Virus record (IMG/VR): IMGVR_UViG_3300034374_009179
Location: 1-31,362 of that record
Source: a virus
Direction: 5' to 3' (one strand)
DNA length: 31,362 nucleotides
Shown here: one piece after another, positions 1-22,786 of the stretch
Layout of the letters: each line of letters begins with the position of its first letter
Numbering within the stretch: position 1 is the stretch's first letter
The notes under the pieces: model-generated
Databases searched by the model: none
Seen by the model: only the letters and a program-made list of their open reading frames with translations
Told to the model about the DNA's origin: nothing
Position numbers and translations under genes: made by a program

Positions 1-2946
1 GGGTGTGGAACTGGTTTCAGTGTTCAAAAACATCATGTCGCAAAACTCCCAAAATTGCGACAGGTTTCAGCAAAAGGTAGCAGCGTGAAACATGTTATTC
101 GGGATAATATTGAAGGATGGTCGGACGCTATTGGTATTCTCGTTTCTTCATACTTTGAAGACTGTGATTTATTTCCAGAATATTCTGGTAAATCCGTGAC
201 ATTTGATTACTCAAAGATTCGCCCCGCTGGCTCCTATCTAAAATCTAGCGGCGGAAAAGCACCCGGACCAGAACCACTAAAAAAGGCTCTAAATAATATT
301 AAAAAGATTCTTGATAGGGCCGTTAAAAATGGGCAAGAGAAGCTTAAGCCAATAGACGCTTATGATATAGTAATGTTTGCCGCCGACGCCGTTATTAGTG
401 GTGGAGTACGCAGAAGTGCTACAATATGTGTTTTTTCACCGGATGATGAAGAAATGGCGAAAGCTAAAACAGGAAGCTGGTTTATAGATAACCCACAAAG
501 AGGCAGATCTAACAACTCTGCCCTTCTACTGAGAGATGGAACAAGTAAAGAGCAATTTGAAGAATTAATGAATTCAGTAAAAGAGTTTGGCGAGCCGGGG
601 TTTGTTTGGTCAGACTCGAAAGAATTAATTGTTAACCCGTGCGTTGTTGCTGATTCTACTATATTAACCGACCGTGGCATCAAAATGGTTTCTGATCTTA
701 TTAACAAGCCATTTAATGCCATAGTAGATGGACTATCTTATCCAAGCCATAAAGGATTTTGGAAAACAGGAACCAAGCAGGTTATTGAGTTACAATTTAA
801 ATCTGGTAGGACTCTTAAAGTAACTCCTAATCATAAGATTATGACAACAACGGGATGGAAAGAGGCTGGAGATATTCTTTTTGGAGAAAATGTTGTTATT
901 AATAATCACAGAGATTATACATTGGACAACGCAGCTAATTTTGATCCAACGTCTGTAGCTTGGAAGAAAAGTTATCTTTTAGGATTATTTTTAGGTGACG
1001 GCAATAATTCAAAAGGATCTGCACAATTAAAATGGTGGGGTGAATCAAAAGAAGAATACAGAAAAGAAGCATATCAAATGCTTTCAGAAGTTGGTTTTAC
1101 CAATCATCACCATAAATCAGGACAAAATTCTACAGCTGTTTATAGTTCTGTAGAATCGAAAAAACTTATGAAATTTGCTATTGATAACGGTTGTATAGTT
1201 GGAACATCTAAAAAACTAAGTAAACGATCTATTTGTGGATCATGGAATCATATTTCAGGGTTAATTGCTGGATATTTTGATGCTGACGGAACAGTATTAG
1301 TAAATAATGTAAAAGGATCATCTTTAAGAATATCATCTATTCAATTAGAAAATTTGCAAAATTTACAAATAGCACTTAATTCTTTTGGTATTTACTCTAG
1401 AATTTATCAAAATCGTAGATCAGAAGGTGATAGAGTTATGCCAGATGGCAAAGGTGGAACAAAAAATTACTTTTGCCAAGCCTCACACGAATTAGTAATC
1501 AGCAATGATAACATAGTTAGATTTGCAAAATATATTCCAATCAAGAATGCTGATAAGATTCATAAAATTCAAACAATAGTGAATAATTATAAAAGGATGC
1601 CAAATAGAACTAACTTTGTTGACGTTCTTGTAAATAAAACTATTGTTGGAGATTTAGATGTTTATGACTGCACAGTAGAAGATATTCATGCTTTTGATAA
1701 TGACGGTGTTTATGTTCACAATTGTGTCGAAATTGGCATGTGGCCTGTCGATGAAACAACTGGAGAAACTGGATGGCAAGCATGTAATCTATCAACTATT
1801 AATTGTGCAAAGGTAAAGACAGAACAAGATTTTTATGATGCTTGCAAAGCTGCTGCGATTATAGGAACACTACAGGCTGGTTTTACTAAGTTTGAATACC
1901 TCGGAAGTGTTTCTGAAAGAATAGTTGCTAGAGAGGCACTGCTTGGAGTTTCTATGACAGGTATGATGGAAAAACATGATATTTGCTTAGATCCAGAAAT
2001 TCAACGCCATGGTGCAGAAATAGTAAAAGAGGTTAACGAGAAAGTTGCCGAAGTTATTCAAATCAATAAAGCGGCTAGAACAACATGTATTAAACCCGAA
2101 GGATCGTCTAGTTGTATCCTTGGTACATCCTCTGGTATCCATCCTCATCACGCCAAACGATATATTCGTCGTGTTCAGGCCAACAAAATGGAACCTATAT
2201 ATCAATACTTCAAAGAAGTAAATCCTAGAGCGTGTGAAAAAAGCGTATGGTCTAATAATGATTCTGATGACGTTGTGGCATTCTGTGTAGAGGTTCCAGA
2301 TGGTTCAAAATTAAAAAATCAAGTAAGTGCAATTGATCTTCTTGAGTATGTAAAAAGCACTCAACAGAATTGGGTCATGAGTGGCACAAATAAAGAACTA
2401 TGTACGCAAAAATGGCTGGTTCACAATGTATCTAATACTATAAATGTTAAGCCAGAAGAATGGGATCTTGTGACAGACTTTATATATGATAATCGTCAAT
2501 ATTTTTGTGGAATATCATTGTTGCCAATAGCTGGCGATAAGGACTATGCACAGGCACCATTCACGACCGTATATTTACCAAGTGAACAAGTCCAGCACTA
2601 TGGTGATGCAGCCATGTTTGTTAGTGGGTTAATAGAAGTGGGGCTTAAACTTTATGATGATAATCTATGGGCGGCATGTGATAGCCTTCTAGGTTTTGGT
2701 CAAAAAATAAAAGATCCAGAAAAGAAGGAATATCTAGACAGATGTCAAAAGTTTGCAGATAAATATATGAACGGCGATCTTAAGCTATTAACATACTGCA
2801 TGAAAGACGTATACAACTGGAAAGATTGGATTGATATGAAGCGAGAGTATGTTGATGTTGATTATACGAATGTTATAGAAGAAGAAAATAATGTTAATCC
2901 AGTTCAAGAGATCTCATGTGCTGGAGGTAAGTGCGACTTAATTTAA
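1..2946 (+). CDS. nrdJ: Class II (adenosylcobalamin-dependent) ribonucleotide reductase, intein-containing, 5' end outside window
   Basis: Reduces ribonucleotides to deoxyribonucleotides by a B12-generated thiyl radical. The frame is open from base 1 (G-C-G-T-G-F-S-V, a class II/RTPR-like glycine-rich segment), so the gene starts upstream and a TTG at 55 is only an internal codon. Visible family features are N-P-C-V-E-I around the catalytic cysteine (codon 1723-1725 after splicing), A-C-N-L-S-T-I-N, G-T-L-Q-A-G-F-T-K-F-E-Y-L, K-P-E-G-S-S-S, and a C-terminal C-A-G-G-K-C redox pair that would recycle the active-site disulfide. An intein at 640-1722 interrupts the gene; without it the visible protein is about 620 aa, close to monomeric RTPR enzymes once the missing N-terminus is allowed for. 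Family assignment is firm. Monomeric RTPR versus another class II subtype is less sure because the N-terminus is missing. Confidence 0.93.
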   Translation, partial: GCGTGFSVQKHHVAKLPKLRQVSAKGSSVKHVIRDNIEGWSDAIGILVSSYFEDCDLFPEYSGKSVTFDYSKIRPAGSYLKSSGGKAPGPEPLKKALNNIKKILDRAVKNGQEKLKPIDAYDIVMFAADAVISGGVRRSATICVFSPDDEEMAKAKTGSWFIDNPQRGRSNNSALLLRDGTSKEQFEELMNSVKEFGEPGFVWSDSKELIVNPCVVADSTILTDRGIKMVSDLINKPFNAIVDGLSYPSHKGFWKTGTKQVIELQFKSGRTLKVTPNHKIMTTTGWKEAGDILFGENVVINNHRDYTLDNAANFDPTSVAWKKSYLLGLFLGDGNNSKGSAQLKWWGESKEEYRKEAYQMLSEVGFTNHHHKSGQNSTAVYSSVESKKLMKFAIDNGCIVGTSKKLSKRSICGSWNHISGLIAGYFDADGTVLVNNVKGSSLRISSIQLENLQNLQIALNSFGIYSRIYQNRRSEGDRVMPDGKGGTKNYFCQASHELVISNDNIVRFAKYIPIKNADKIHKIQTIVNNYKRMPNRTNFVDVLVNKTIVGDLDVYDCTVEDIHAFDNDGVYVHNCVEIGMWPVDETTGETGWQACNLSTINCAKVKTEQDFYDACKAAAIIGTLQAGFTKFEYLGSVSERIVAREALLGVSMTGMMEKHDICLDPEIQRHGAEIVKEVNEKVAEVIQINKAARTTCIKPEGSSSCILGTSSGIHPHHAKRYIRRVQANKMEPIYQYFKEVNPRACEKSVWSNNDSDDVVAFCVEVPDGSKLKNQVSAIDLLEYVKSTQQNWVMSGTNKELCTQKWLVHNVSNTINVKPEEWDLVTDFIYDNRQYFCGISLLPIAGDKDYAQAPFTTVYLPSEQVQHYGDAAMFVSGLIEVGLKLYDDNLWAACDSLLGFGQKIKDPEKKEYLDRCQKFADKYMNGDLKLLTYCMKDVYNWKDWIDMKREYVDVDYTNVIEEENNVNPVQEISCAGGKCDLI
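640..1722 (+). mobile_element. NrdJ intein with LAGLIDADG homing endonuclease (361 aa)
   Basis: The in-frame insertion starts with Cys1 (C-V-V-A-D-S-T-I-L-T, block A), has T-P-N-H (block B), two dodecapeptide LAGLIDADG motifs (Y-L-L-G-L-F-L-G-D-G near 975 and I-A-G-Y-F-D-A-D-G near 1270), and ends V-Y-V-H-N followed by Cys+1. Removing it restores N-P-C-V-E-I-G. It is therefore a class 1 intein (Cys1, Asn end, Cys+1). The +1 residue is the radical-carrying catalytic cysteine of the reductase, so the enzyme cannot be active before splicing. Both endonuclease motifs keep their acidic residues, so the homing domain may be active (inference). Confidence 0.93.
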
Positions 2947-2954
2947 GGTGTAAA

Positions 2955-3056
2955 ATGAAAAGAGATAGAATAGTTTTATTTGTAGCTTTACTTGCTGTTT
3001 TTGGCTTCATGATCGCCGCAGCTTTTATATCACTAATAATTTTAGAGCCAATTTGA
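2955..3056 (+). CDS. Small single-pass membrane peptide (33 aa), unknown
   Basis: A 33-codon ORF begins with ATG at 2955, eight bases after the nrdJ stop, and ends with TGA just before the dUTPase start. It has a short basic N-terminus (M-K-R-D-R) followed by about 22 hydrophobic residues and a short E-P-I tail, which looks like one transmembrane helix. A weak Shine-Dalgarno-like AAGG lies at 2945-2948. It fills the gap between nrdJ and dut without disturbing either. No family is recognised; it could be a holin-like or inner-membrane microprotein, but size and hydrophobicity alone do not show that. Confidence 0.5.
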   Translation: MKRDRIVLFVALLAVFGFMIAAAFISLIILEPI

Positions 3057-3061
3057 AAAGG
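3056..3061 (+). promoter_or_regulatory. Ribosome binding site deciding the dUTPase start
   Basis: AAAAGG lies six bases before ATG 3068. This favours 3068 over the in-frame TTG at 3053, which overlaps the preceding stop and has no ribosome binding site at a useful distance. Confidence 0.55.
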
Positions 3062-3067
3062 ATAAAT

Positions 3068-3544
3068 ATGCAGACAAATATAATTGGAAAAAATACAGTT
3101 AGTACTACTCCAGAAAATAATAGTTCGATTAACTTTGTTAAGCTTAATGATGAATCAAAAACACCAAAGAGGTCTAATGATACTGACGCTGGATATGATC
3201 TATATTCCGTAGAAAACAAGAGCATCAAACCAAAATCTAGAGTAATCATTAAAACTGGAATTTCTATGGCTATTCCAAACGGCTTTGTTGGTTTGATTTG
3301 GCCTAGATCTGGATTAGCGGTTAAATATGGTATTGATACTCTGGCTGGAGTAATAGATAGCGGATATCGTGGCGAAATATGCGTTGTTTTACAAAATCAT
3401 GGAGACAAAGCATACGAAGTAAAATCCGGCGATAGAATAGCTCAGATATTATTTCAGTCTGTTGAATGTGTATATTTTAATGAGGTTAGCACTTTAGAGG
3501 AAAGTCAAAGAGGAAGTGGTGGGTTTGGTAGTAGTGGAGCTTAA
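3068..3544 (+). CDS. dut: Deoxyuridine 5'-triphosphate nucleotidohydrolase (dUTPase)
   Basis: Hydrolyses dUTP to dUMP and pyrophosphate, keeping uracil out of DNA and supplying the dTMP precursor. All five trimeric dUTPase motifs are present in order: D-A-G-Y-D-L-Y-S (I), R-S-G-L-A (II), G-V-I-D-S-G-Y-R-G-E-I (III, with the catalytic Asp and the sugar-stacking Tyr), G-D-R-I-A-Q-I-L-F (IV), and a C-terminal glycine-rich R-G-S-G-G-F-G-S-S-G (V). The 158-aa length is normal for the family. ATG 3068 is chosen for its ribosome binding site. It follows nrdJ, so two steps of dNTP supply are adjacent. Confidence 0.95.
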   Translation: MQTNIIGKNTVSTTPENNSSINFVKLNDESKTPKRSNDTDAGYDLYSVENKSIKPKSRVIIKTGISMAIPNGFVGLIWPRSGLAVKYGIDTLAGVIDSGYRGEICVVLQNHGDKAYEVKSGDRIAQILFQSVECVYFNEVSTLEESQRGSGGFGSSGA

Positions 3545-3546
3545 TA

Positions 3547-4659
3547 GTGAGTCAGCCACAAAAAAGAATATTCTATGCCTGTCAGGCAGTATTATTTATT
3601 TCAAGAAATACACAAACATCCAATAGTCCATTAAGTGAGGCTTCTTATCTTACGGGCGTTCAATCTGTTGGTGTTGATGGCGATTTTCCGTCTACAACCT
3701 TTCCAGATTTTGGTAGATTTCAAAGAAAAAACAAATTTGAAAATAGGCAAAAAGAATTTTCTATTAATATAGACAGAGTATTGGCAAAAGGTCAAGACAC
3801 TTTTTATAATTCAAATTATTCTAGCAGTTATACTACTACACATCTACTTCACGAAGACAACATAGGCTGTCAAGGTGAGCTAAATAATAATGGAAAATGT
3901 CTAAGAAATTATGATATCTTTCTAGTGTACGGAGATGATGAAAACTCACTATTAAATGATAGCACAACAAAAAAGAATGTCGTATATAGAAACTGTTTGT
4001 TGACAAGTTTGTCTTATAATATTTCTGTAGATGGGTCTATTATTGAGTCTATTGGATTAATCAGCAGAAAGGCAGACTATAATGCTGCTGGCATTCCCTC
4101 TCTACCAGTTTCTCCACAGTCAGCAGAAACTGTAAGAAGGCAAGATATAGATATGGCTAGCACTATCCTTCCAGAAGAAGCGTTAGCGATATTCAAAACG
4201 GATGAACCAGATTCTTTAAATAACAAAGATATTTATGGTCTTCAGTCAATAAATATTGATATGTCTATAGACTACACAGAATTAAATGATATTGGCATAT
4301 GGCGTGGATATGACGATGGCGATGATATAAACAAGTGGAGATTTGTCAATCTGCCAATAAATATTTCGTCTTCTTTTACTGGAGTGTCAAGATCTTTATA
4401 TCCAAGAGAAGACATAGGTGTAGATACACCAGAGTTTGAAAAAAATAAATCAATAAAAATTGTATCGCTTGCCGGTAATTCCAATTATTATATATGGGAT
4501 CTAGGCAGAAGAAATTATTTAAATAATATAAACGTTTCTGGTGGAGATGCGGATGGAGGGAATGTAGAACTAACACTATCATATCAAAATGACTATAGTG
4601 AATTAGTAATAGCTCGGGCGGAAACAGTACAAGATATAACATCTAATGCTATTTATTAA
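3547..4659 (+). CDS. Probable virion structural protein, tail-tube-like
   Basis: 370 aa, starting at GTG 3547 with GGAG at 3536-3539 seven bases upstream. The pattern resembles phage tail-tube-type proteins I know from other tailed phages: an early L-T-G-V-Q-S-V-G-V segment followed by an aromatic stretch (F-P-D-F-G-R-F), a strand with R-V-L-A-K-G-Q-D-T-F-Y, and a central L-T-S-L-S-Y-N-I-S-V-D-G-S followed by E-S-I-G-L, typical of beta-sandwich tube subunits. There is no signal peptide, membrane segment or catalytic motif. It is isolated among metabolism and replication genes, which is odd for a structural gene. The structural role is an inference from sequence pattern only. Confidence 0.5.
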   Translation: MSQPQKRIFYACQAVLFISRNTQTSNSPLSEASYLTGVQSVGVDGDFPSTTFPDFGRFQRKNKFENRQKEFSINIDRVLAKGQDTFYNSNYSSSYTTTHLLHEDNIGCQGELNNNGKCLRNYDIFLVYGDDENSLLNDSTTKKNVVYRNCLLTSLSYNISVDGSIIESIGLISRKADYNAAGIPSLPVSPQSAETVRRQDIDMASTILPEEALAIFKTDEPDSLNNKDIYGLQSINIDMSIDYTELNDIGIWRGYDDGDDINKWRFVNLPINISSSFTGVSRSLYPREDIGVDTPEFEKNKSIKIVSLAGNSNYYIWDLGRRNYLNNINVSGGDADGGNVELTLSYQNDYSELVIARAETVQDITSNAIY

Positions 4660-11344: not shown

Positions 11345-12347
11345 AATATCAAAAACCGCTTTTAACAACTTATCTACACTTTTTAATAAACTTGGTATTG
11401 AATATGTAGAATACCCAAATAGATATTCATTTCCATGTCCGGTGCATGGCGGTGATAATATGGAAGGTTGTAGTATTTTTACTAGCGGTCATTCAAATAA
11501 AGGCAATTGGAAATGCTGGACAAACCACTGCGAAGAAGAATTTGCAAATAATATTTTTGGATTTATAAGAGGATCTCTATCATATAGAGCGAATAGAAAC
11601 GTCTCACTAAATGAAACAGAGTCGTTTTGCATTGATTTGTTTGGCCTAGATACCATAAATAGTATTCCTGAAGATATAGAAAAAAAAGAGGTAGATTTGA
11701 CAGAAGTCTTCAGCAAAAAACCAACAATAACAAAAAACGGAATAACTAGAGATCAAATAAGGTCAAAACTAAAAATACCATCACCATACTTTTTAGATAG
11801 GGGATTCTCCAGAGAAATATTAGATACGTTTGATGTTGGACTATGTTTAGAGCGAGGAAGACCCATGTATAACAGGTCAGTTGTACCTGTTTACGATAAT
11901 GATTTTAACTATACTGGATGCGTTGGCAGGGCTACAAACGAAAGTTTTAAGCCAAAATGGCTACATAGTAAAGGGTTTAAAAAGTGTGTGCTATATGGGC
12001 TAAATCTAGCTAAAAATAAGATATTGGAAACTCAGTCAGTTATATTAGTAGAGGGTCAAGGCGATGTTTGGAGAATGCATGAGGCTGGATGCGGCCAAAC
12101 CGTTGGCATATTTGGGTCTAGCATAAATGATGAACAGCTTCTTCTTCTGGAAAATAGTGGGGCATTAAATATGGTTGTTTTAACAGACTATGATGATGCC
12201 GGTAAAAAAGCTTTCGAGCAAATAGTTAAAAAGTGTGGAAGAAGATTTAATTACTACAGACCGGAAATATCAAAAAAAGATGTAGGTGAAATGTCTGTAG
12301 AAGAAATTCAGAAACAACTAATACCACAATTACAAGGAGTAATATAG
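11313..12347 (+). CDS. dnaG: DnaG-type primase (zinc finger plus TOPRIM)
   Basis: Makes RNA primers for the lagging strand. A CHC2-like zinc site reads C-P-V-H-G-G then C-S-I-F and W-K-C-W-T-N-H-C within the first 75 residues. The core has a TOPRIM domain: V-I-L-V-E-G-Q-G-D-V (catalytic Glu) and V-V-L-T-D-Y-D-D-A-G-K-K-A (D-x-D). At 344 aa it is short, lacking the long helicase-binding C-terminus of bacterial DnaG, as is common in phages. The gene begins inside the helicase gene. Confidence 0.88.
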   Translation: MKTLTQKQIYKISKTAFNNLSTLFNKLGIEYVEYPNRYSFPCPVHGGDNMEGCSIFTSGHSNKGNWKCWTNHCEEEFANNIFGFIRGSLSYRANRNVSLNETESFCIDLFGLDTINSIPEDIEKKEVDLTEVFSKKPTITKNGITRDQIRSKLKIPSPYFLDRGFSREILDTFDVGLCLERGRPMYNRSVVPVYDNDFNYTGCVGRATNESFKPKWLHSKGFKKCVLYGLNLAKNKILETQSVILVEGQGDVWRMHEAGCGQTVGIFGSSINDEQLLLLENSGALNMVVLTDYDDAGKKAFEQIVKKCGRRFNYYRPEISKKDVGEMSVEEIQKQLIPQLQGVI

Positions 12348-12351
12348 TTTC

Positions 12352-13248
12352 ATGATTAGTAGAATATTAGCTTTTGCCGGAAGTAAACAAGCTGGAAAAA
12401 CAACGTCATCAAATTTTTTACATGGATACCAACTGAAAGCAAACGGTATAATAAATAATTTTGGTATCACCGACACTGGTAGCCTAGCTGTTGAAAGTGT
12501 CGTTACAGATTCGAATGGGAAAGAAACAGTAAGCTCTGGATTTTTAGACGTAAATCGAAATGATGAAGAATTTGCTGAGTGGGCAGCGTATAATATGTGG
12601 CCATATATAAAAAATTACTCATTCGCAAATCCATTAAAAGAGTTTTGTGTGGCGATGTTTAATCTACCGAGAAAGAACATATTTGGTAACAATGAACTAA
12701 AAAACGAAAACAGCCCACTAAAATGGCAAGACATGCCCGGAGTTATAACCAATAAATCACAATCAATAAAAAAAGAAGTCAAATCCCTTATCGAGAATGG
12801 GTCTATGATATACCATAGGCAGGGGAACATGACTTATAGAGAAGTCTTGCAATTTTTTGGAACTAATATATGTAGAAAAATATACCCAGAAATATGGCAT
12901 AGAAGATTAATAAAAGATATTGAATATGAGCAACCTCTTATTGCTGTTGTAGATGATTGCAGATTCGTTAATGAAGTTAAGTCAATTCAGGAAAATGGTG
13001 GTAAAGTCATACACCTAACTAGAAATCCATACGAAGATAATCATGATAGCGAAAAGGAGCTTGAATCATATGGCGATTTTGATTTTGTCATTGATAATGC
13101 TAATCTCAATATACATGAAACAAATATAAAAATAATAGAAGCGATAGATTTTTGGGGATGGCTAGACAAAGAGTTTACACCACCCAAAACAGAGCCGCCA
13201 AAAACAGAAAAAGAACTTGTTAGTGGCATACACAAAATAAAGAAATGA
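12352..13248 (+). CDS. Deoxynucleoside monophosphate kinase-like P-loop kinase
   Basis: 298 aa. An N-terminal P-loop (F-A-G-S-K-Q-A-G-K-T-T, residues 8-18) is followed by a layout like T4 gene 1 dNMP kinase: a substrate-domain segment F-A-N-P-L-K-E-F, Y-R-E-V-L-Q-F-F-G-T-N-I-C-R with W-H-R-R-L, then A-V-V-D-D-C-R-F-V-N-E and V-I-H-L-T-R-N. It would phosphorylate dNMPs toward dNTPs, fitting the RNR and dUTPase genes. The proline/lysine-rich tail after residue ~275 is extra. AAGGAG lies 12 bases upstream of ATG 12352. Confidence 0.8.
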   Translation: MISRILAFAGSKQAGKTTSSNFLHGYQLKANGIINNFGITDTGSLAVESVVTDSNGKETVSSGFLDVNRNDEEFAEWAAYNMWPYIKNYSFANPLKEFCVAMFNLPRKNIFGNNELKNENSPLKWQDMPGVITNKSQSIKKEVKSLIENGSMIYHRQGNMTYREVLQFFGTNICRKIYPEIWHRRLIKDIEYEQPLIAVVDDCRFVNEVKSIQENGGKVIHLTRNPYEDNHDSEKELESYGDFDFVIDNANLNIHETNIKIIEAIDFWGWLDKEFTPPKTEPPKTEKELVSGIHKIKK

Positions 13249-13255
13249 GATAAAT

Positions 13256-15226
13256 ATGGATTGTACATACATAAGAAGTAGCAGCTATAATCAGTACGAA
13301 TATTGCCAGATGTCATATTTTCTGACATATAATTTGGGATGGCAGCAAACGTCAGGAAAAAAAGCCCAACTGGGAACTATTGTCCATAAAGTTATGGAGT
13401 GTTTAGCCACATGCAAAAAAGAGATACAGGATAATCCCAAGAGCACCAAACTGGAAATAGAAGACGATTCTTTAGGTAAAATAAAATTTACAAAGAATTC
13501 ATTATATACAAAAACTTTTGTAGATAAACTGATAAAATCGTCTTATGACTACTATACTAGTAGTTGTGTTCACTCATACTCTAACGCCGATTTTAATTTC
13601 TGCAAAGATTTAGTCAAAATGGCTATAGAATATAACGATGGTCAATTTGATCCCAGAAATAGGAAAATAGTACAAGCAGAACCACATTTTGATATACCAA
13701 TAGAGGAAGATTGGGCTAAGTATAAATATACATTACCAGACGGTAAAATTATTGAGGGGCAACTGGCAATAAAGGGAACAATAGACTTAGTAACGGAAGT
13801 TGATGATGGCATAATAGAGGTTGTAGATTGGAAGGGTCTACCTCTAGATACCAAAATACCAACACCAAATGGCTGGACAACTATGGGTGAAATACAAATT
13901 GACGATGAAGTGTTTGATCAGTATGGTCAAGTATGCTCTGTTGTTGGTAAGTCTCGCGTAAAGAATAAGCCATGCTACAAAATTACATTTGACGATACTA
14001 CATCTGCTATTTGTGATGATGAGCACTTATGGAAACTTGCTAATGATAAAACCGTGCCAGTACAAGAACTACGTATTGGAGATACTATTAATGTGGCAAA
14101 ACCAATTGACTGTGGGTATATAGACCTACCAGTGTCACCATATCTTCTAGGTTCATGGTTAGGAGATGGGAGAAATAGGTCGTGTGAAATTTGTAGTGAT
14201 GACCCAGAAATGTATGAGCTACTAAGAAGTGATGGTCATGAGATTGGGGTTAATGTTGGACACGTAAATGCTGCTGAATCTAGAACAATATTAAACACTA
14301 CTAGTGTACTTAGAACTCTAAATGTTTTGCATAATAAGCACATTCCAGAAATTTACTTCAGGGCTTCATTCGATCAAAGATTAAATCTTTTGAGGGGGTT
14401 GCTAGACACTGACGGTAATGTGAATACTGGTCGTAAACAGGCGGTATTTACATCATGCAATGAAAGACTCGCTAATGATGTTAAACATTTAGCATTAACA
14501 TTAGGGCAGAGGCCCTATATCTACAAGCAAACACGCCAAACAAATTTTACAAACGGCGAGAATGTAAATGTATATCATGTTTCGTTCAGGCCAATTAATA
14601 TCAACCCATTCAGGCTCGATAGAAAAGCGAGCATGATAGATCCAAATTGGGGTGCTGGTAGGTCCAATATTAGAAAGATAATCAGTATCACAGAAGAACC
14701 AATACAAAAAACACAATGTATTGCTGTAGATAGTCCTGATAATACTTACTTGTGTACCGAGAATTATATTCCAACCCACAACACAGGTCGCCGCTTAAAC
14801 TGGGCTACAGGTGAAGAAAAAACTTATGAAAAATTATGTGAAGATCCACAGCTACTACTGTATAACTATGCGATATCAAAATTGTTCCCAGAATACAAAC
14901 AGGCCATAATGTCTATCTTCTTTATTAAAGATGGGGGTCCATTTAGCATGTGTTTTGATTCTGATGATCAAACAAAATTTTTGTCGATGCTTGAAAAAAG
15001 ATTCAAACAGATAAAGCGTAATGATTTTCCACAACCGGTTTCAAGAGACAGATCAAGTTTTAAATGCACAAAGCTTTGTCATTTTTATAAAAACAATTGG
15101 AAAGATACCAATACGACTATGTGTCATTATATCGAAGATCATATAAAAGCTTTTGGTTATGATGAAACGGTTAGAAAATGCACTAAAGAAAATCATAGCA
15201 TTGGATATTACGAAGCTCCGGGTTAA
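13256..15226 (+). CDS. RecB/Cas4-like PD-(D/E)XK exonuclease interrupted by an intein
   Basis: The mature protein is about 340 aa after removal of the 316-aa intein at 13835-14782. Nuclease features are S-Y-N-Q-Y-E-Y-C near the start, L-G-T-I-V-H-K-V-M-E (RecB-family His), G-T-I-D (Asp177), and E-V-V-D-W-K (Asp191, Lys193) rejoined to T-G-R-R. This gives the D-x13-D-x-K-T-G-R core of RecB/AddB/Cas4 nucleases. Cysteines at 17, 604, 608 and 623 could hold an iron-sulfur cluster as in Cas4/AddB, although the spacing is not canonical. The likely role is end resection or recombination beside RecA, DnaB and the polymerase. No Cas1/Cas2 or CRISPR array is present, so this is not a CRISPR adaptation gene. 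Confidence 0.85.
   Translation: MDCTYIRSSSYNQYEYCQMSYFLTYNLGWQQTSGKKAQLGTIVHKVMECLATCKKEIQDNPKSTKLEIEDDSLGKIKFTKNSLYTKTFVDKLIKSSYDYYTSSCVHSYSNADFNFCKDLVKMAIEYNDGQFDPRNRKIVQAEPHFDIPIEEDWAKYKYTLPDGKIIEGQLAIKGTIDLVTEVDDGIIEVVDWKGLPLDTKIPTPNGWTTMGEIQIDDEVFDQYGQVCSVVGKSRVKNKPCYKITFDDTTSAICDDEHLWKLANDKTVPVQELRIGDTINVAKPIDCGYIDLPVSPYLLGSWLGDGRNRSCEICSDDPEMYELLRSDGHEIGVNVGHVNAAESRTILNTTSVLRTLNVLHNKHIPEIYFRASFDQRLNLLRGLLDTDGNVNTGRKQAVFTSCNERLANDVKHLALTLGQRPYIYKQTRQTNFTNGENVNVYHVSFRPININPFRLDRKASMIDPNWGAGRSNIRKIISITEEPIQKTQCIAVDSPDNTYLCTENYIPTHNTGRRLNWATGEEKTYEKLCEDPQLLLYNYAISKLFPEYKQAIMSIFFIKDGGPFSMCFDSDDQTKFLSMLEKRFKQIKRNDFPQPVSRDRSSFKCTKLCHFYKNNWKDTNTTMCHYIEDHIKAFGYDETVRKCTKENHSIGYYEAPG
13835..14782 (+). 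mobile_element. Class 3 intein with LAGLIDADG endonuclease in the nuclease gene (316 aa)
   Basis: The in-frame insertion lies between Lys193 and the Thr of the D-W-K-T-G-R motif. It starts with Gly (G-L-P-L-D-T-K-I-P-T-P-N-G-W), so position 1 is not Cys, Ser or Thr. It shows the class 3 W-C-T signature: H-L-W in block B (His257, Trp259), C-I-A-V-D-S-P in block F (Cys488), and Thr510 as the +1 residue after P-T-H-N. In class 3 inteins the block F Cys makes the first branched intermediate. LAGLIDADG motifs are Y-L-L-G-S-W-L-G-D-G and L-L-R-G-L-L-D-T-D-G. The intein shows different Ile codon use from its host gene (7 ATA, 14 ATT, 4 ATC against 17, 5, 2). Confidence 0.9.
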
Positions 15227-15713: not shown

Positions 15714-16608
15714 GTTAATAGATGTACATCAAGAATTCCATCTTGGAAATAGATTTATATTTGATGTTGCTGAAAACATGTCTAAATTTTTACCAGATGA
15801 ATATAGAGTTATTGTAAAGTATGATAGACAGGCTTATCATGATTATAGTCCAAATTTCTTAAATGTGTTATTGTCAACATCATGTGAATCACATAATCTT
15901 GCAAAAGATTTCTTTGATGAAAATGTTCACGCTATCTTTCAAAATTATTTTCATTTAAATAAGTGGAGCGAGCCCGTTCACAATAACATATCTTATCCAC
16001 TACCAATAGGTACATTTGTAGATGTACCAAATGATATAAATATAAAACCACTACAGGAAAGAGAGTTTGATTTTTGTTTTATTGGCTCAATACCAAATAC
16101 TGGCACAAGGGACTGCTTTAAAAGAAATGTAGATTCATTTATTAAGGGTTTTGGAAACAATTATAAATACAGAATACATTATACTAATTCTTTTAGTGAT
16201 GGATTATCTCACAATGATTATCTTGAAATATTAAACAGCTCAAAAATAAGTTTGTGTCCATCCGGGTCATCTAGCAGTGAAACATTTAGATTTTTTGAAT
16301 CAATTAGAATGGGGTCGTTTCCCGTAGTTGACTTTTTACCAAAGTTTTGGTATTATGAAGGTGCCCCATTTTTTTTAGTGAAATGGTTTCAGATAGAAAA
16401 AACAATACCACTTATGCTACAAAGCTTGGAAAATGGATATAATCATACTGAACACGTATCAAGATATATGGATGAAATACTTAATCCAAAAAATTTGGCT
16501 AATATACTATCTCAAATATTGCTAAAAAGAGATTCTATTGGTATAGATTTAGTAAAAGGGCAAATCGAAAAAACAAGAACAGAGATGAAAAAACAATGTC
16601 GAATGTAG
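15706..16608 (+). CDS. Exostosin-like glycosyltransferase
   Basis: 300 aa. The C-terminal half carries K-I-S-L-C-P-S-G-S-S-S-S-E-T-F-R-F-F-E-S-I-R-M-G-S-F-P-V-V split around residues 185-212, the sugar-nucleotide-binding pattern of exostosin/GT47-like and other GT-B enzymes. The upstream strand F-D-F-C-F-I-G-S-I is typical of the start of that half. It overlaps its neighbours on both sides, so it belongs to the same transcription unit, yet it sits among replication genes more than 6 kb from the main glycosyltransferase cluster. Donor and acceptor cannot be read from the sequence. Confidence 0.75.
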   Translation: MAELIDVHQEFHLGNRFIFDVAENMSKFLPDEYRVIVKYDRQAYHDYSPNFLNVLLSTSCESHNLAKDFFDENVHAIFQNYFHLNKWSEPVHNNISYPLPIGTFVDVPNDINIKPLQEREFDFCFIGSIPNTGTRDCFKRNVDSFIKGFGNNYKYRIHYTNSFSDGLSHNDYLEILNSSKISLCPSGSSSSETFRFFESIRMGSFPVVDFLPKFWYYEGAPFFLVKWFQIEKTIPLMLQSLENGYNHTEHVSRYMDEILNPKNLANILSQILLKRDSIGIDLVKGQIEKTRTEMKKQCRM

Positions 16609-18173
16609 CGATTAATTGTAAAACGCACTATAGCCTACTTAGGGGTTTTTCAAAGTGCGAAGCATTAGCAAAGAAGTGTAGCGAATATGGTTACACTTCT
16701 TGCGTTTTAGCAGATATAAAAACAATAGCTGGTGCTGTTGATTTTCATAAGGCTTGCAAAAAATACGGAATAAAACCAATTATAGGGTGTGACTTTGAAG
16801 AATATATGCTTGTAGCTAAAAATAAAAATGGATGGCTCGATTTAATCAGATATTTTTCTGATCAGAATTTAACAAATCTTAAAGAGATATGTAAAAATGG
16901 AAATATTTTATGTCTAAGCCCAAACACTTCATTTAAGAAGATATTTCAAAATAACTTTATTGAAGTATCGTATCAGAAATATGCTTCATACTACGTGGAA
17001 AAAAGTGACGCGGTTCTGCACAGAATACTGCTTTGTTCCGGCATGAAGAAAACAATACCACAAGTTAACAAGACTCTAAAAAACAATGAGGAATTCAATG
17101 ACAAAAGGTTTTTTATATCCGATGAATTTCATCTTAAAGGACCAGAAGATATTAATATAGACTTTGATCTAGATAAATTATGCGAAGATTATGAAATAAC
17201 GCACAAGCCAATGCTGCCAGAATTTGAATGCCCAGACGGCCTAAATCAAGATGAATACCTTACCCAATTATGTCGGATTGGGTGGCGGGAAAAGCTGATT
17301 AATAATGGCATAGTAGATGACGATGAGGTAAAATCAAAATATACCGATAGAATAAAATTAGAGCTTGGCGTAATATTTGAAGCTGGATTATCTGGTTATT
17401 TTCTAGTTGTTCAAGATATAGTTAATGAGGTTAAAAGAAGGGGATGGATAGCTGGAGTTGGAAGAGGAAGTGCTGCTGGCAGTCTTGTGTCGTATTTGAT
17501 CGGCATAACCGGTATTGACCCAATTAAATATAATCTTTTATGGGAGCGATTTTATAATCGAGGAAGAGATTCTGGTGATCATGTTTCTCTGCCGGATATT
17601 GATATGGACGTTCCGGCAGATAAAAGAGATGATATTATTGAGTACATTAAAAACAAATATGGGCACGATAAGGTTTCACAGATGATAACCTTTGGCAGGC
17701 TTCAGGGCAGAGCCGCCCTTAAGGAAGTACTAAGAATCAGTGATGCTGTCTCGTTTGCCGAAATGAATGAGATAACTAAAAACATACCAAATGAAGCTGA
17801 AATATCTGACCAGTTAGAATTGATGGAGCAAAAATCAATCATCAGATGGGCACTAGAAAATCAACCAGAATCACTAGAGGCTTGGTGTAAAATAAATGAC
17901 GATGGCGAATTAGTTGGACCATTGTCCGAAATATTTGAGCAAGCTATAAAAATAGAAGGCACAAATAAATCACAAGGTAAACATGCCGCTGGTGTGATAA
18001 TCTCTAAAGAGAAACTAAAAGATGTATGCCCAATGATTAAAGACAAAAATGGACAGATGATAGCGGGATTTGAAATGAACGATTTAGAAAGTCAGGGCCA
18101 TGTCAAATTCGATGTTCTAGGAATAGATTTACTTGGAAAAGTTATGGAGATAATTAATTATGAAAGCAACTAA
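16596..18173 (+). CDS. dnaE: DNA polymerase III alpha subunit, piece 1 (PHP, palm, thumb)
   Basis: 525 aa. The N-terminal PHP domain (to about residue 200) is followed by the polymerase core with V-G-R-G-S-A-A-G-S (near 287-295), L-P-D-I-D-M-D (catalytic Asp334 and Asp336) and H-V-K-F-D-V-L-G (third catalytic Asp506). It ends 20 residues later with a normal stop, at the palm-fingers junction, so the fingers, C-terminal DNA-binding and OB parts are missing from this chain. There is no half-intein at its C-terminus. PHP metal ligands are degraded: the usual H-x-H is N-C-K and the D-H pair is D-I. The gene overlaps the glycosyltransferase by 13 bases and the next ORF by 14. Confidence 0.92.
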   Translation: MSNVAINCKTHYSLLRGFSKCEALAKKCSEYGYTSCVLADIKTIAGAVDFHKACKKYGIKPIIGCDFEEYMLVAKNKNGWLDLIRYFSDQNLTNLKEICKNGNILCLSPNTSFKKIFQNNFIEVSYQKYASYYVEKSDAVLHRILLCSGMKKTIPQVNKTLKNNEEFNDKRFFISDEFHLKGPEDINIDFDLDKLCEDYEITHKPMLPEFECPDGLNQDEYLTQLCRIGWREKLINNGIVDDDEVKSKYTDRIKLELGVIFEAGLSGYFLVVQDIVNEVKRRGWIAGVGRGSAAGSLVSYLIGITGIDPIKYNLLWERFYNRGRDSGDHVSLPDIDMDVPADKRDDIIEYIKNKYGHDKVSQMITFGRLQGRAALKEVLRISDAVSFAEMNEITKNIPNEAEISDQLELMEQKSIIRWALENQPESLEAWCKINDDGELVGPLSEIFEQAIKIEGTNKSQGKHAAGVIISKEKLKDVCPMIKDKNGQMIAGFEMNDLESQGHVKFDVLGIDLLGKVMEIINYESN

Positions 18174-18390
18174 ACAGGATATCAAGACAGTAGTATTTTC
18201 TGGTTGTGCTTTAGAGCTTGATGGTGTATCAATTTGCAATATTGAAAACTATCTAAAGAACGCCGTGGTCAAAAGATCAGCAAAATATCAAGTGTGGTCA
18301 GATAGACATAGATGCTATAAGCTTTACCATAATATTGATGAGGCTGTAGACAAGTTTCTATCATTAACAAAGGATAAAGTATATGGCTAA
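18160..18390 (+). CDS. Hypothetical 76-aa protein between polymerase pieces
   Basis: The small basic protein has its start inside dnaE piece 1 and its stop inside the exonuclease gene. The second half (K-R-S-A-K-Y-Q-V-W-S-D-R, C-Y-K-L-Y, N-I-D-E-A-V-D-K-F-L) alternates strands and a final helix much like an AP2-type DNA-binding fold, in which three strands pack on an E-A-A helix. That likeness is by eye and weak. It has no intein motifs, so it is not the source of a trans-splicing half. The location suggests a polymerase-associated factor. Confidence 0.55.
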   Translation: MKATKQDIKTVVFSGCALELDGVSICNIENYLKNAVVKRSAKYQVWSDRHRCYKLYHNIDEAVDKFLSLTKDKVYG

Positions 18391-19072
18391 TACGAGGGAT
18401 ATTATTTGTTTTGATTTTGAAACTGGGGGAGCGAACCCACACACATGTCAACCAACCCAAATAGCCGCAATAGCTATACACGGAAGAAAACTAACGCTTC
18501 AGCCAAATGGTGTTTTCAATAGTGAGATTCGTCCAATTATTGATGATGAAAAGGCCATAGCCGCTGGTGTTGGTCCACTTGAAGACAAGGCCCTTGAAAT
18601 AACAAGAAAAACTAGAGAGGGGCTAGCTAAGGCCCCACCACCTAAAATAGTATGGAAAAAGTTTACTGAATTTGTTAACCAATACAATTGGAAAAATACT
18701 TCTTTCACTGCACCAATAGCCGCTGGCTTTAATATCATAGCATATGATATGCCTATTGTTAATCGTATGTGTAAGCAATACGGTCCATATAACAACGATA
18801 GGGGGGAGCAAAAGCTGTTCAATCCTATATTTAAAATGGATCTTATGGACCATATTTATTGTTGGTTTGAGAACAATCAAGATGTTAAATCTTATAATAT
18901 GGATTATCTAAGGGACTATTTTGGATTGCCCAAAGATAATGCTCACGATGCCCTACAGGATGTTAAAGATACGGCAAATATATTGATTAAGTTCTTAAAA
19001 TTACAACGAGGACTTCTTAAAAAGATAAAGTTTGAAAAATCATTTGCAAATGGGGATATGTACATTGAGTAA
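18383..19072 (+). CDS. dnaQ: DnaQ-like 3'-5' exonuclease (DEDDh)
   Basis: 229 aa. Exo I is I-I-C-F-D-F-E-T-G-G (Asp11, Glu13), Exo II is A-G-F-N-I-I-A-Y-D-M-P-I, and Exo III is N-A-H-D-A-L-Q-D-V-K-D-T-A (H and D of DEDDh). This is the epsilon-type proofreading fold. Piece 1 of the polymerase has a degraded PHP domain, so a separate exonuclease is the likely proofreader. The gene lies exactly between two halves of dnaE and overlaps both neighbours by 8 bases, suggesting coupled synthesis of the subunits. Confidence 0.88.
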   Translation: MANTRDIICFDFETGGANPHTCQPTQIAAIAIHGRKLTLQPNGVFNSEIRPIIDDEKAIAAGVGPLEDKALEITRKTREGLAKAPPPKIVWKKFTEFVNQYNWKNTSFTAPIAAGFNIIAYDMPIVNRMCKQYGPYNNDRGEQKLFNPIFKMDLMDHIYCWFENNQDVKSYNMDYLRDYFGLPKDNAHDALQDVKDTANILIKFLKLQRGLLKKIKFEKSFANGDMYIE

Positions 19073-20438
19073 GATGGACTTAAATGACTTTGAAGATCAA
19101 AACGTATGGGATTTGATATGCAGCGGAAAGACAAAAGGTGTTTTCCAGCTAGAGTCTAATCTTGGTAGACATTGGGCAAAACAACTAAAACCAAGAAGTA
19201 TTTCTGAATTATCTGCTCTGATCAGCCTCATTCGACCGGGGTGCATCTCTGGTGATACAAAAATAACAGTATCTTCTTACATACATAAAGATGGCAATGT
19301 TAGGTTTGTAAGAAAAACAATGAAAGAATTGTTTATCAATAAAGATAGGTACGATAGTTTATTTTCTATTGACAAAGATTACAATCTTGACATTAATAGG
19401 GTTTCTGATATTTTTTATAGCGGGCAAAAAGAGTGTTTTAAAGTTTTAATCTCTAAAAGGCCAAACAGGAAAAAGTCTTGGAAACAGCCAATATATTATG
19501 ACTTGGAATGCACAAAAGACCATAAGCTATTGAGAAGTGATGGCGAGTGGGTGGAGCTTCAACATTTGAAACTTGGCGACCGTATAGCGATACTTAAAAA
19601 ACAAAGAAAGAAGCTTGTAGCAAATAGACAAGCCCCGTCAGCAGATAAAGTAGAAAATGCTAGATTAAGACTACCACAATCTAATGACATAGAGTGGGCC
19701 GAGTATGTGGGTTGTGAATCGGTTGGCATTAAAGATACTTATGATATAACAATGGATGGACCTAATCATAATTTCATGGCTGGTGGCATTGTTGTTCATA
19801 ACTGCCTTAAGGCTTATACAGACGGCAAAAGCATGACTCAGCATTATGTAGATAGAAAATCTGGAAAAGACCCGACAACATTTCCACACGATTCTCTATC
19901 TGATATACTGAATGAAACTTACGGCGTTTTAGTATATCAAGAACAATCAATGATTATAGCCCAAAAGCTTGCTGGGTTCAGTCTACAGGAAGCAGATGTT
20001 TTAAGAAAGGCTATTGGTAAGAAAAAAGCGGACCTCATGGAAAAGGTTAAAAAATCATTTATAGAAGGTGCTATCAATAAGGGAATCGTAAGTAAAGAAC
20101 TTGCAGAAGAAATATTTTCTTGGATTGAAAAATCTAGTAGATATTCGTTTAATAAATGTCTATCACCAGAAACAATCGTTATCACGCCTAGCGGCGAGAA
20201 ACCGATGAATGATATAAAAGTTGGAGATGCAGTATTAGCACCAAACCATAATGGTAATGAATTTGTTGAAGTTCTAGACACAATAGACAATGGCGATAAA
20301 GAAACCGTAGAAATAACCTTAGAAGACGGTAAAACAATAACATGCACGATAGATCATAAATTCTTATGTAACAATGGGCAAATACTTCCACTTTATGAGA
20401 TTTTAGAAAACAATCTTGAAATTATGTGTATAAACTAG
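19065..20438 (+). CDS. dnaE: DNA polymerase III alpha subunit, piece 2, with mini-intein and N-terminal split-intein half
   Basis: The sequence takes up the DnaE fold at the start of the fingers: E-D-Q-N-V-W-D-L-I-C-S-G-K-T-K-G-V-F-Q-L-E, then S-L-I-R-P-G. After a mini-intein (19242-19802) it continues Y-V-D-R-K-S-G, Y-G-V-L-V-Y-Q-E-Q-S-M, R-K-A-I-G-K-K-K and R-Y-S-F-N-K. It then enters a half-intein at 20157 and stops. Host-derived sequence is about 177 aa. The start is uncertain: TTG 19065 (GGGG nine bases upstream, overlapping the exonuclease stop) or ATG 19074; in-frame codons at 19032 and 19050 add residues unlike DnaE. It needs both cis- and trans-splicing to mature. Confidence 0.88.
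   Translation: MSKMDLNDFEDQNVWDLICSGKTKGVFQLESNLGRHWAKQLKPRSISELSALISLIRPGCISGDTKITVSSYIHKDGNVRFVRKTMKELFINKDRYDSLFSIDKDYNLDINRVSDIFYSGQKECFKVLISKRPNRKKSWKQPIYYDLECTKDHKLLRSDGEWVELQHLKLGDRIAILKKQRKKLVANRQAPSADKVENARLRLPQSNDIEWAEYVGCESVGIKDTYDITMDGPNHNFMAGGIVVHNCLKAYTDGKSMTQHYVDRKSGKDPTTFPHDSLSDILNETYGVLVYQEQSMIIAQKLAGFSLQEADVLRKAIGKKKADLMEKVKKSFIEGAINKGIVSKELAEEIFSWIEKSSRYSFNKCLSPETIVITPSGEKPMNDIKVGDAVLAPNHNGNEFVEVLDTIDNGDKETVEITLEDGKTITCTIDHKFLCNNGQILPLYEILENNLEIMCIN
19242..19802 (+). other. DnaE mini-intein without endonuclease domain (187 aa)
   Basis: The insertion splits R-P-G and the following C-L-K-A-Y-T-D-G. It opens with Cys1 (C-I-S-G-D-T-K-I-T-V, block A), has C-T-K-D-H-K-L-L (block B T-x-x-H), Y-D-I-T-M-D-G-P-N-H-N-F (block F) and ends I-V-V-H-N before Cys+1. 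No LAGLIDADG or other nuclease motif is present, and a basic linker (K-K-Q-R-K-K-L-V-A-N-R) occupies the usual endonuclease site. It is therefore a class 1 mini-intein that has lost, or never had, its homing nuclease. It lies in the fingers region of the polymerase. Confidence 0.9.
20157..20438 (+). other. Split intein, N-terminal half (IntN, 93 aa)
   Basis: After the extein S-F-N-K the frame enters C-L-S-P-E-T-I-V-I-T-P-S-G-E (block A) and runs through V-E-I-T-L-E-D-G-K-T-I-T-C-T-I-D-H-K-F-L (block B with T-x-x-H), then G-Q-I-L-P-L-Y-E-I-L-E. It stops at TAG 20436. Length, order and end point mirror the IntN half of the cyanobacterial split DnaE intein. I count 17 acidic and 5 basic residues (Lys/Arg), giving the strong negative charge typical of IntN halves that pair electrostatically with a basic IntC. 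Confidence 0.92.
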
Positions 20439-20453
20439 TGTGAGCCCTATTAA

Positions 20454-20459
20454 AAGGAG
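20454..20459 (+). promoter_or_regulatory. Ribosome binding site of the homing endonuclease
   Basis: AAGGAG lies nine bases before ATG 20469, in the 30-base gap after the IntN stop. The endonuclease therefore has its own translation start and is not made by read-through. Confidence 0.6.
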
Positions 20460-20468
20460 TCGTAGTTT

Positions 20469-21365
20469 ATGACAATAGAAAAAAAAGATTGGCATACATG
20501 TATACTGTGCGAAAAGGATATAAAAGATTTATCTAAAATATACGGTGGTTCTGGTATATATTACACTAAAGTATTTTCAGATCACCTAAAAAATGATCAT
20601 GGTATTTCTCCAGAAGAATACTTTGAAAAAATATCAGAAAGACCACTCTGTTCATGCGGGGAATGCAAAAAGGTTGTTGACCTTGTTTGGAAAGGGAAAA
20701 ATAATTTCTCATGGAGAAAATATAAATGTGGTAAAAATGATGGAGTTAAAAAATGGAGCAAATGGGCAAAACATGGTAGATCCGGTGAAAATAATCCAAT
20801 GTATGGAAGAGATTCGTGGAATAAAAATAAAACAAAATATGATTCAGATATAATAATGAAAATATCTCAAAAGATGACAAACAGACACATATCTGATATA
20901 ACTAAACAAAGACAATCCAAGTCAGCCAAAGCGAGAAAAATACATGGACACACTGGCCATAGACATAGTGAAGAATCTAAAAATAAAATGAGAATAGCGA
21001 CATTAAACGCTATCAAGAATGGCAAAATGCCACAAACCAAAACAAAATGCCACATAGAGATGGCAAAAATATTAAATGATCTTAATATTTCATTTGAAGA
21101 AGAGTTTATGGTAAGTTATTGGTCTTTTGATTTCTACTTGAATGATCTGGATATTTTAATAGAAGTTGATGGTGATTATTTTCATTCAAATCCATTATTT
21201 TACAAAAAGCCAAAAACAAAAACTCAAAAAATAAATGCTAGCAGGGACAAGAAAAAAAATGAATTCTGTAAGACAAATAATCTTACTTTAATTAGATTTT
21301 GGGAACACGATATACATAACAACAGGGAAGATGTAATATGCAGGCTAGAAAAATTATTAATGTAA
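20469..21365 (+). CDS. Free-standing homing endonuclease, NUMOD3 plus Vsr-like nuclease
   Basis: 298 aa. The N-terminus has a C2H2-like finger (H-T-C-I-L-C-E-K-D-I ... F-S-D-H-L-K-N-D-H-G) and a further C-S-C-G-E-C. Next come NUMOD3-type DNA-binding segments (G-E-N-N-P-M-Y-G-R and S-E-E-S-K-N-K-M-R). The C-terminal nuclease is Vsr-like: S-F-D-F-Y-L-N-D-L-D-I-L-I-E-V-D-G-D-Y-F-H, then R-D-K-K-K-N-E-F-C, then L-I-R-F-W-E-H-D-I. This matches the type of endonuclease described in fractured genes with split inteins. It lies between IntN and IntC, and its last 28 bases overlap the IntC start. The expected target is the unbroken dnaE site encoding F-N-K-S-H (inference). Confidence 0.85.
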   Translation: MTIEKKDWHTCILCEKDIKDLSKIYGGSGIYYTKVFSDHLKNDHGISPEEYFEKISERPLCSCGECKKVVDLVWKGKNNFSWRKYKCGKNDGVKKWSKWAKHGRSGENNPMYGRDSWNKNKTKYDSDIIMKISQKMTNRHISDITKQRQSKSAKARKIHGHTGHRHSEESKNKMRIATLNAIKNGKMPQTKTKCHIEMAKILNDLNISFEEEFMVSYWSFDFYLNDLDILIEVDGDYFHSNPLFYKKPKTKTQKINASRDKKKNEFCKTNNLTLIRFWEHDIHNNREDVICRLEKLLM

Positions 21366-21451
21366 AAAAGATAGGGAAAATTAGGACTATGGATATTGAG
21401 GTTGATAATGAATCTCATATATTCTACGGAAATGGTATAGCCACATCTAAT
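21338..21451 (+). other. Split intein, C-terminal half (IntC, 38 aa)
   Basis: M-Q-A-R-K-I-I-N-V-K-K-I-G-K precedes T-M-D-I-E-V-D-N-E-S-H-I-F-Y (block F) and G-I-A-T-S-N (block G), with Asn as the last intein residue and Ser as +1. The length matches the 36-residue IntC of cyanobacterial DnaE. It carries six basic and four acidic residues, complementing the acidic IntN. It lacks any block A or B, so it can splice only with the IntN encoded at 20157-20438. Confidence 0.92.
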
Positions 21452-22468
21452 TCCCACGGGGTTGCATATGCCATAAACGCATTCTGGAGCGCGTATTGTA
21501 AATACCATAAACCCACAGCCTTCTATATTTCATATCTAAATCACGCACACAGAAAGCCAGATTCGCATAAAGAAATTAAAGAACTGGTTGTTGACGCTAA
21601 ACTTCTTGATATAGAAGTGTATCCACCAAGACTTGGTAACATTTATAAAGATTTCACAAGTAGGGGTGGTAAGATTTATTTTGGTATATCGCACATAAAG
21701 AATGTAGGCGATTCAGAGTGCGATAAAATAGTAAACAACTTTTCAAACAGCGAAATAAAAAACTTTTCTTGGGTTCAATCGTTGGTAGAAATTATATACA
21801 AGGGAAAAGTTAACAAGAGGGCGGTTATATCTCTAATATCTGTCGGGGCCTTCAATGGGCCTAAAAATATAGAATCTAGAAACAAAATGCTATATGAATT
21901 TGATAGCTGGAATCAGCTAACCCAAAGAGAAAAAGACTATATTGCAGATAATTATTCTGAATTTTCATCGCTTAACGAATGTATAGATAATATGCTGTCT
22001 AATTTTAAGTTAACATCAAAGCGAAAAGAAGTAGTTTCAGATATTTGTGAATCTCTTAAAAATCCATTTTATGATACTCAAGATAGTATTTCAACTATAG
22101 CGCAGTACGAAGAAAAATACATGGGGTGTTCTTTAACTTGTAGTAAATCAGACGCGGTTGATAGTACGTTTTCTGCAACAATGTGCAAAGACATATCCAA
22201 CGGATTGATAACAGGTAAAGCAAATATTATAGTTACTATAAGCTCAGTAAGGACATATAAAACAAAAAAGGGGAAAAATCCCGGTCAAATTATGGCGTTT
22301 TTGTGTGCTGAAGATAGTAGCGGTATGCTGGATTCGATTACCGTGTTTCCAGAGTCTTATGAGAACTACAAAGATTTGCTAATTGAAAATAATACAGTAC
22401 TAATACAGGGCGAAATCTCAAAAAGAGATAAGTCTTCAATTATTGCAAATAAAATTACTCAGGTTTGA
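21338..22468 (+). CDS. dnaE: DNA polymerase III alpha subunit, piece 3, with C-terminal split-intein half
   Basis: The first 38 residues are an IntC, and the extein resumes with Ser at 21452: S-H-G-V-A-Y-A-I-N-A-F-W, which joined to F-N-K of piece 2 recreates the DnaE F-N-K-S-H motif. It continues through the C-terminal fingers and helix-hairpin-helix region (near G-G-K-I-Y-F-G-I-S-H-I-K-N-V-G) to an OB-fold (K-A-N-I-I-V-T-I-S-S-V-R-T-Y, S-G-M-L-D-S-I-T-V-F). The host-derived part is 338 aa. Pieces 1, 2 and 3 without intein total about 1,040 aa, near the length of an intact DnaE (E. coli 1,160). ATG 21338 is the only start that includes the whole IntC. Confidence 0.92.
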   Translation: MQARKIINVKKIGKIRTMDIEVDNESHIFYGNGIATSNSHGVAYAINAFWSAYCKYHKPTAFYISYLNHAHRKPDSHKEIKELVVDAKLLDIEVYPPRLGNIYKDFTSRGGKIYFGISHIKNVGDSECDKIVNNFSNSEIKNFSWVQSLVEIIYKGKVNKRAVISLISVGAFNGPKNIESRNKMLYEFDSWNQLTQREKDYIADNYSEFSSLNECIDNMLSNFKLTSKRKEVVSDICESLKNPFYDTQDSISTIAQYEEKYMGCSLTCSKSDAVDSTFSATMCKDISNGLITGKANIIVTISSVRTYKTKKGKNPGQIMAFLCAEDSSGMLDSITVFPESYENYKDLLIENNTVLIQGEISKRDKSSIIANKITQV

Positions 22469-22474
22469 AACAAT

Positions 22475-22786
22475 ATGAATAAATGCTATTTTTTAGGTAG
22501 ATTGAAAGAACGACCAAGGTTACAAAAAATTAATGATACAAATGTTACTAGATTCAATTTAGAAGTAGAAGAATTTAGGAAAGATAAGTCTGGAACAAGA
22601 AAAAAAAGAAAAGACGTTTTGACATTTGAGGCTTGGGATACGGCAGCAACAGCAATAAACAAACAGGCACTACCTTACGATAATATGGTAGTTGAGTGCG
22701 TTGCTAGAAATGATAGACCAAGTGACGATATTGTGTTTAGGGTGACAAGCTTTAGGATTTTTAAAACATTTGAAGATGAGAAATAA
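22475..22786 (+). CDS. ssb: Single-stranded DNA-binding protein (OB fold)
   Basis: 103 aa. It opens M-N-K-C-Y-F-L-G-R-L-K-E-R-P-R-L, the usual first strand of bacterial-type SSB, followed by N-V-T-R-F-N-L-E-V-E, a basic loop (K-D-K-S-G-T-R-K-K-R-K) and D-V-L-T-F-E-A-W-D, then M-V-V-E-C-V-A-R-N-D. The length covers only the OB fold. The long acidic tail of bacterial SSB is missing and replaced by a short E-D-E-K end. It lies six bases after dnaE piece 3. Confidence 0.85.
   Translation: MNKCYFLGRLKERPRLQKINDTNVTRFNLEVEEFRKDKSGTRKKRKDVLTFEAWDTAATAINKQALPYDNMVVECVARNDRPSDDIVFRVTSFRIFKTFEDEK

Follow-up and report, generated by a model that had tools for sequence, protein, structure and literature searches.

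A probable mobile fractured gene in a viral dnaE: a split intein with a free-standing EDxHD-type endonuclease gene between its halves

The window analysed here is an entire IMG/VR virus record of 31,362 bases, a fragment of a metagenomic virus without a megablast match among 50,697 phage records. Besides DnaE, it encodes NrdJ, a dUTPase, PhoH, RecA, DnaB, a Toprim protein, an exonuclease, an SSB-like protein and glycosyltransferases. The viral DnaE is carried by two genes, split between the palm and the fingers with no intein at that place (16596-22468 in the window; also L005-L070 and L272-L313), and the N part is a separate gene in all relatives holding both parts. Wherever a locus of the clade holds both parts, the two dnaE genes are separated by a small ORF and a gene for a DnaQ-like exonuclease. 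The second dnaE gene (about 19074-22468), whose ORF opens at 19032 with an in-frame ATG at 19074, is interrupted twice: a contiguous mini-intein lies at 19242-19802, and the second insert is the fractured cassette described here (Table 1). The window DnaE is made as three polypeptides before splicing.

Table 1. Position of the dnaE genes and of the parts of the cassette in the window
Feature	Positions	Strand	Matches or basis
dnaE N gene (PHP + palm, 525 aa), first DnaE polypeptide	16596..18173	+	Pfam PHP 2.5e-15, DNA_pol3_alpha 1.1e-71
DnaQ/RNase T-type 3'-5' exonuclease gene, between both dnaE genes	18383..19072	+	Pfam RNase_T 7e-12; PHROG DNA polymerase exonuclease subunit
Second dnaE gene, N-extein of the split intein, fingers domain	19074..20156	+	
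IntN, 93 aa, Cys1, TIDH block B, net charge -12	20157..20435	+	
Stop TAG (20436-20438), second in-frame stop TAA (20451-20453), Shine-Dalgarno AGGAG (20455-20459)	20436..20459	+	
Free-standing EDxHD/Vsr-like homing endonuclease, 298 aa (predicted)	20469..21365	+	Profile and fold
IntC, 38 aa, terminal residues GIATSN, net charge +2	21338..21451	+	
C-extein, rest of DnaE (helix-hairpin-helix, OB fold), +1 residue Ser	21452..22468	+	

IntN with its stop codon, the free endonuclease gene and IntC lie in line where the sequence-only reading had placed them, and they interrupt dnaE exactly between the FNK and SH codons; removal of the insert gives ...RYSFNK-SHGVAYA..., identical to the arrangement of a closely related contig, L005. 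The second in-frame stop lies five codons past the IntN TAG and is followed by AGGAG and then by the endonuclease ATG. IntN and the endonuclease are in one frame in the window, with two in-frame stops between them, and in different frames in L024, L036 and L070. The endonuclease gene overlaps at its 3' end with IntC, which is read in another frame from its own ATG, preceded by AGGGA, and continues into 338 aa of DnaE. Recomputing the net charges first proposed for IntN and IntC gave the same values (-12 and +1 in L024), and the proposed +1 Ser does stand at the start of the C-extein.

The two halves hold the splicing motifs Cys1, TxxH, terminal Asn and Ser+1. IntN matches the NCBIfam model TIGR01445 (intein_Nterm) with 35.7 bits for a cut-off of 24.5, and among PDB inteins the cyanobacterial DnaE inteins and gp41-1 were its best matches (Npu DnaE 3e-10, gp41-1 8e-10). 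The penultimate residue of IntC, just before the final Asn, is a Ser instead of the usual His; a penultimate Ser or Ala was also seen in the cyanobacterial DnaE inteins retrieved. A homologue fused in one piece (contig L257, discussed below) gave a model (pLDDT 79.6) with TM scores of 0.80 to gp41-1 and 0.84 to Npu DnaE, which also favours the window halves forming a complete intein. The split-intein reading, first made from the letters, is thus supported both by the family and PDB matches and by the predicted intein fold of this fused homologue.

The endonuclease comprises N-terminal Cys/His motifs, NUMOD3 repeats and a nuclease domain (about 190-298). The latter matches the catalytic-domain profile of I-Bth0305I, an EDxHD intron endonuclease (PDB 3r3p), at 1e-4, and the predicted fold superposes on Vsr (Z 11.2, 104 residues, 2.7 A) and on I-Bth0305I (Z 10.2) in a model of medium confidence (mean pLDDT 63.5; 57 to 84 for the blocks of the nuclease domain). 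NUMOD3 was found in all four members tested (best 3.7e-6). The endonuclease also has a DUF559/Vsr-like domain, and the initial description as a NUMOD3/Vsr-like endonuclease holds. E212, D221, H239 and D260 are invariant in seven homologues and are candidate catalytic residues. Unlike I-Bth0305I, the enzyme is here free-standing between intein halves and carries NUMOD3 and Cys-rich motifs. A single scan of bacterial genomes returned no relatives of this endonuclease.

The same three-part cassette was found at the same codon in seven contigs (the window, L024, L036, L070, L255, L256 and L261), each time with its own stop, spacer and overlap. Identity to the window endonuclease is 61-62% for L024, L036 and L070 and 51-54% for L255, L256 and L261. 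All seven of these EDxHD carriers retain the TAG, and in each the same frame meets another stop no more than about ten codons further on. One continuous frame through the split, which would contradict the sequence-only reading, is excluded since the six further contigs share the order of the parts, with stop and overlap.

Most of the collected loci are empty (97, for 13 filled, duplicates included; about 90 other viral loci are empty). In L005, a contig 97-98% identical to the window, the dnaE parts are joined with zero bases between FNK and SH. The two sequences show four silent differences within the 7 bases upstream and 6 bases downstream of the insertion point, the next ones being 141 bases upstream and 53 bases downstream; such a clustering has a binomial P of about 2e-6 (local background 10 in 1,355). 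At three of the four positions the window base matches that of the carrier L024. This cluster is as co-conversion during homing would leave it, either through a gain in the window or through a loss in L005. The dnaE site of L068 has an in-frame 24-base deletion of SNRYAFNK exactly at the insertion site, flanked by an AAGTC repeat; the deletion may be a scar left by repair or else an artefact of assembly.

Comparison of L024 with L036 bears on the mobility of the cassette. Their IntN, endonuclease and IntC are 93%, 90% and 87% identical in protein (dS 0.63, 0.31 and 0.56), whereas the N and C parts of their dnaE share only 62% and 57% of amino acids (dS 3.5 or saturated). Furthermore, the host tree groups L036 with L070 with full support, whereas the cassette tree groups L024 with L036. 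The excess of cassette similarity over dnaE similarity and the conflict between the two trees indicate that the cassette has moved between viruses. On the host tree, the carrier state must have changed at least three times. With L024-L036 dN/dS values of 0.07 for IntN, 0.14 for the endonuclease and 0.10 for IntC, all three parts are maintained by selection.

Could the break be spurious, introduced by assembly or sequencing into what is really an ordinary contiguous intein carrying a nested endonuclease? Contiguous inteins do occur at the same site, in L257, L263, L265, the Rhodococcus phage NiceHouse (L316) and a fecal phage (L317). However, seven contigs whose endonucleases are 48-90% identical all have the TAG, the spacer and an IntC start that overlaps the endonuclease gene out of frame, and in three of them IntN and the endonuclease are not even in the same frame. 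As stop, spacer and overlap are conserved in this way, the arrangement is no sequencing error; we consider this explanation already refuted by the conserved arrangement and leave it almost no probability. A second alternative, that a group I/II intron or a plain free-standing endonuclease splits the gene and that the DnaE pieces work unspliced, draws on the fact that this virus clade already has DnaE in two separate genes with no intein between them. The splitting of a gene by insertion of a homing endonuclease has been described for phage nrdA (Friedrich 2007, as cited in PMC10448857). Against this, both halves hold conserved intein blocks under purifying selection, and the fused homologue of L257 is predicted to adopt a complete intein fold. 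Rfam gave no intron match up to E 1 in 18000-22500 and none at the gathering score across the window, and a group I/II intron was rejected for this reason. Unspliced DnaE pieces thus seem very unlikely.

An alternative that accepts the split intein is that it is dying, splicing still being functional while the endonuclease no longer homes. The rarity of carriers, with 7 EDxHD-fractured contigs for about 90 empty loci, and the apparent loss of the endonuclease seen once, in L257, are in its favour. Yet the endonuclease dN/dS of 0.14 was obtained between recently transferred copies, the candidate catalytic residues are invariant, the cassette has recently been transferred into divergent hosts, and its presence/absence difference with L005 is also recent. 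Loss of homing is, in our view, improbable.

The element is very probably a mobile fractured gene, in which the second dnaE gene of a tailed-phage-like virus holds a naturally split intein whose halves flank a free-standing EDxHD endonuclease gene. Its anatomy, its recurrence, the empty sites, the horizontal transfer and the purifying selection on the three parts can be read from the sequences compared, and from these we infer cutting, homing and splicing. The endonuclease probably cuts insert-less dnaE copies near the FNK-SH codons, and repair off an occupied copy would insert the cassette and convert some flanking bases. The two dnaE fragments would be translated apart, and IntN and IntC would pair through their opposite charge. 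Trans-splicing involving Cys1, the block B TxxH, the terminal Asn and Ser+1 would then join FNK to SH and restore the polymerase, the expected ligated DnaE junction being SRYSFNKSHGVAYA.

Further occupants of the site were sought by degenerate DNA scans across both splice junctions. These revealed more dnaE inteins exactly at FNK-S, the junction being FNA-C in L256 and L257. In L259 (oriented 12315-14830), IntN begins with Ser1 and ends in IMCI before a stop; a free-standing LAGLIDADG ORF comes next, then IntC on its own. In L262 (oriented 1032-3877; seen also as L264), IntN runs in frame into NUMOD4/HNH-type sequence, while IntC and the rest of DnaE make up a separate ORF, and L262 is a half-fractured form. 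With the nuclease classes of L259 and L262 taken from sequence motifs rather than from a profile search, the same split position appears to have received at least three nuclease families (EDxHD, LAGLIDADG in L259 and HNH in L262).

Besides the contiguous inteins of L263, L265, NiceHouse and the fecal phage, L257 holds a contiguous mini-intein of 131 aa. Its halves are identical to those of the fractured L256 at 262/273 (96%) and 111/111 (100%) bases, for 79% and 69% DNA identity in the dnaE flanks. The last IntN sense codon is joined in frame to the second IntC codon, the stop, the endonuclease gene and the start codon being gone, and no endonuclease homologue was found elsewhere in the 31.5-kb record of L257. 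In the intein tree, L257 falls within the EDxHD-fractured group, with an AU p of 0.0001 against the fractured forms alone as a clade. Re-fusion is favoured because it needs one event, the reverse needing a homologous endonuclease to enter the same position at least twice. It seems rather likely that L257 is a re-fused fractured intein of the L256 type, and that split inteins revert to one piece in nature; we go no further than this because the case is a single metagenomic contig. If re-fusion is real, fractured elements are a reversible stage and not a dead end.

Fractured genes associate split inteins with EDxHD/Vsr-like endonucleases, as in gp41-1, gp41-8, NrdJ-1 and IMPDH-1 (Dassa et al. 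2009, cited in PMC3653736 and PMC12350094). As far as these accounts go, the present cassette resembles them in its split at the endonuclease insertion position, the free-standing endonuclease gene between the halves, Cys1/Ser+1 and the EDxHD/Vsr domain, and differs from them in its host gene, the dnaE of a virus clade with DnaE already in two genes. We conclude that the cassette belongs to the known fractured-gene kind. We found no earlier report of a phage dnaE case, in a literature check that is incomplete in that it stops short of the original fractured-gene list of Dassa 2009. The sequence-only reading had added that fractured genes are known mainly from environmental DNA; the kind agrees, but cultured phages have them too. 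IntN and IntC are likewise in separate genes in Campylobacter phage nrdA and in polB and uvsX of Vibrio phage vB_VmeM-32; the host genes differ from ours, and a SegG-like gene is found in uvsX and two ORFs without known function in nrdA. Among named phages, we noted fractured genes in vB_VmeM-32 (polB and uvsX), Campylobacter WX1 (nrdA) and Prevotella Lak-B5 (recA) (L253, L249 and L254); in Lak-B5 recA a nuclease-like ORF follows IntN.

The cyanobacterial split DnaE inteins (Npu, Ssp) share with this one the host protein, a natural split at the same intein position and a penultimate Ser. They differ by their insertion site (Y-CFNKSH, 4 residues upstream of the FNK-SH used here), by Cys+1 and by having no endonuclease. 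A common ancestry with them was first suggested by the top PDB and NCBIfam matches and the shared penultimate Ser. However, the profile score is 59 bits, for 66 with the Campylobacter phage NrdA split intein, the tree support of 90/89 obtained with the last residues is gone once the last three are dropped, and the AU p is 0.32. These comparisons do not support the idea that this intein descends from the cyanobacterial split DnaE intein, or that the two share an ancestry apart from other inteins.

The origin, spread and disappearance of split inteins have mostly been argued from single snapshots. A single site here offers empty, newly invaded, fractured (with two nuclease families), half-fractured and apparently re-fused alleles, including one empty/occupied pair that differs by 2-3% in DNA, and the larger value of the finding lies in this allele series. 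Since these are real allele pairs, homing by a fractured gene and the interconversion of split and contiguous forms become testable. The site also widens the choice of candidate tools for protein ligation by split inteins from an essential polymerase, among them a Ser1 type.

The window holds four inteins. A LAGLIDADG-type intein of 361 aa lies in NrdJ, a class II ribonucleotide reductase (640-1722). A LAGLIDADG intein of 316 aa (13835-14782) lies within a PD-(D/E)XK exonuclease at its DWK-(T/S)G active-site motif, and is absent from L005, 97% identical. The contiguous mini-intein of the second dnaE gene, 187 aa long and inserted at RPG-C, was found among the collected loci only in the window, in L005, where it is 5 aa longer, and in L278.
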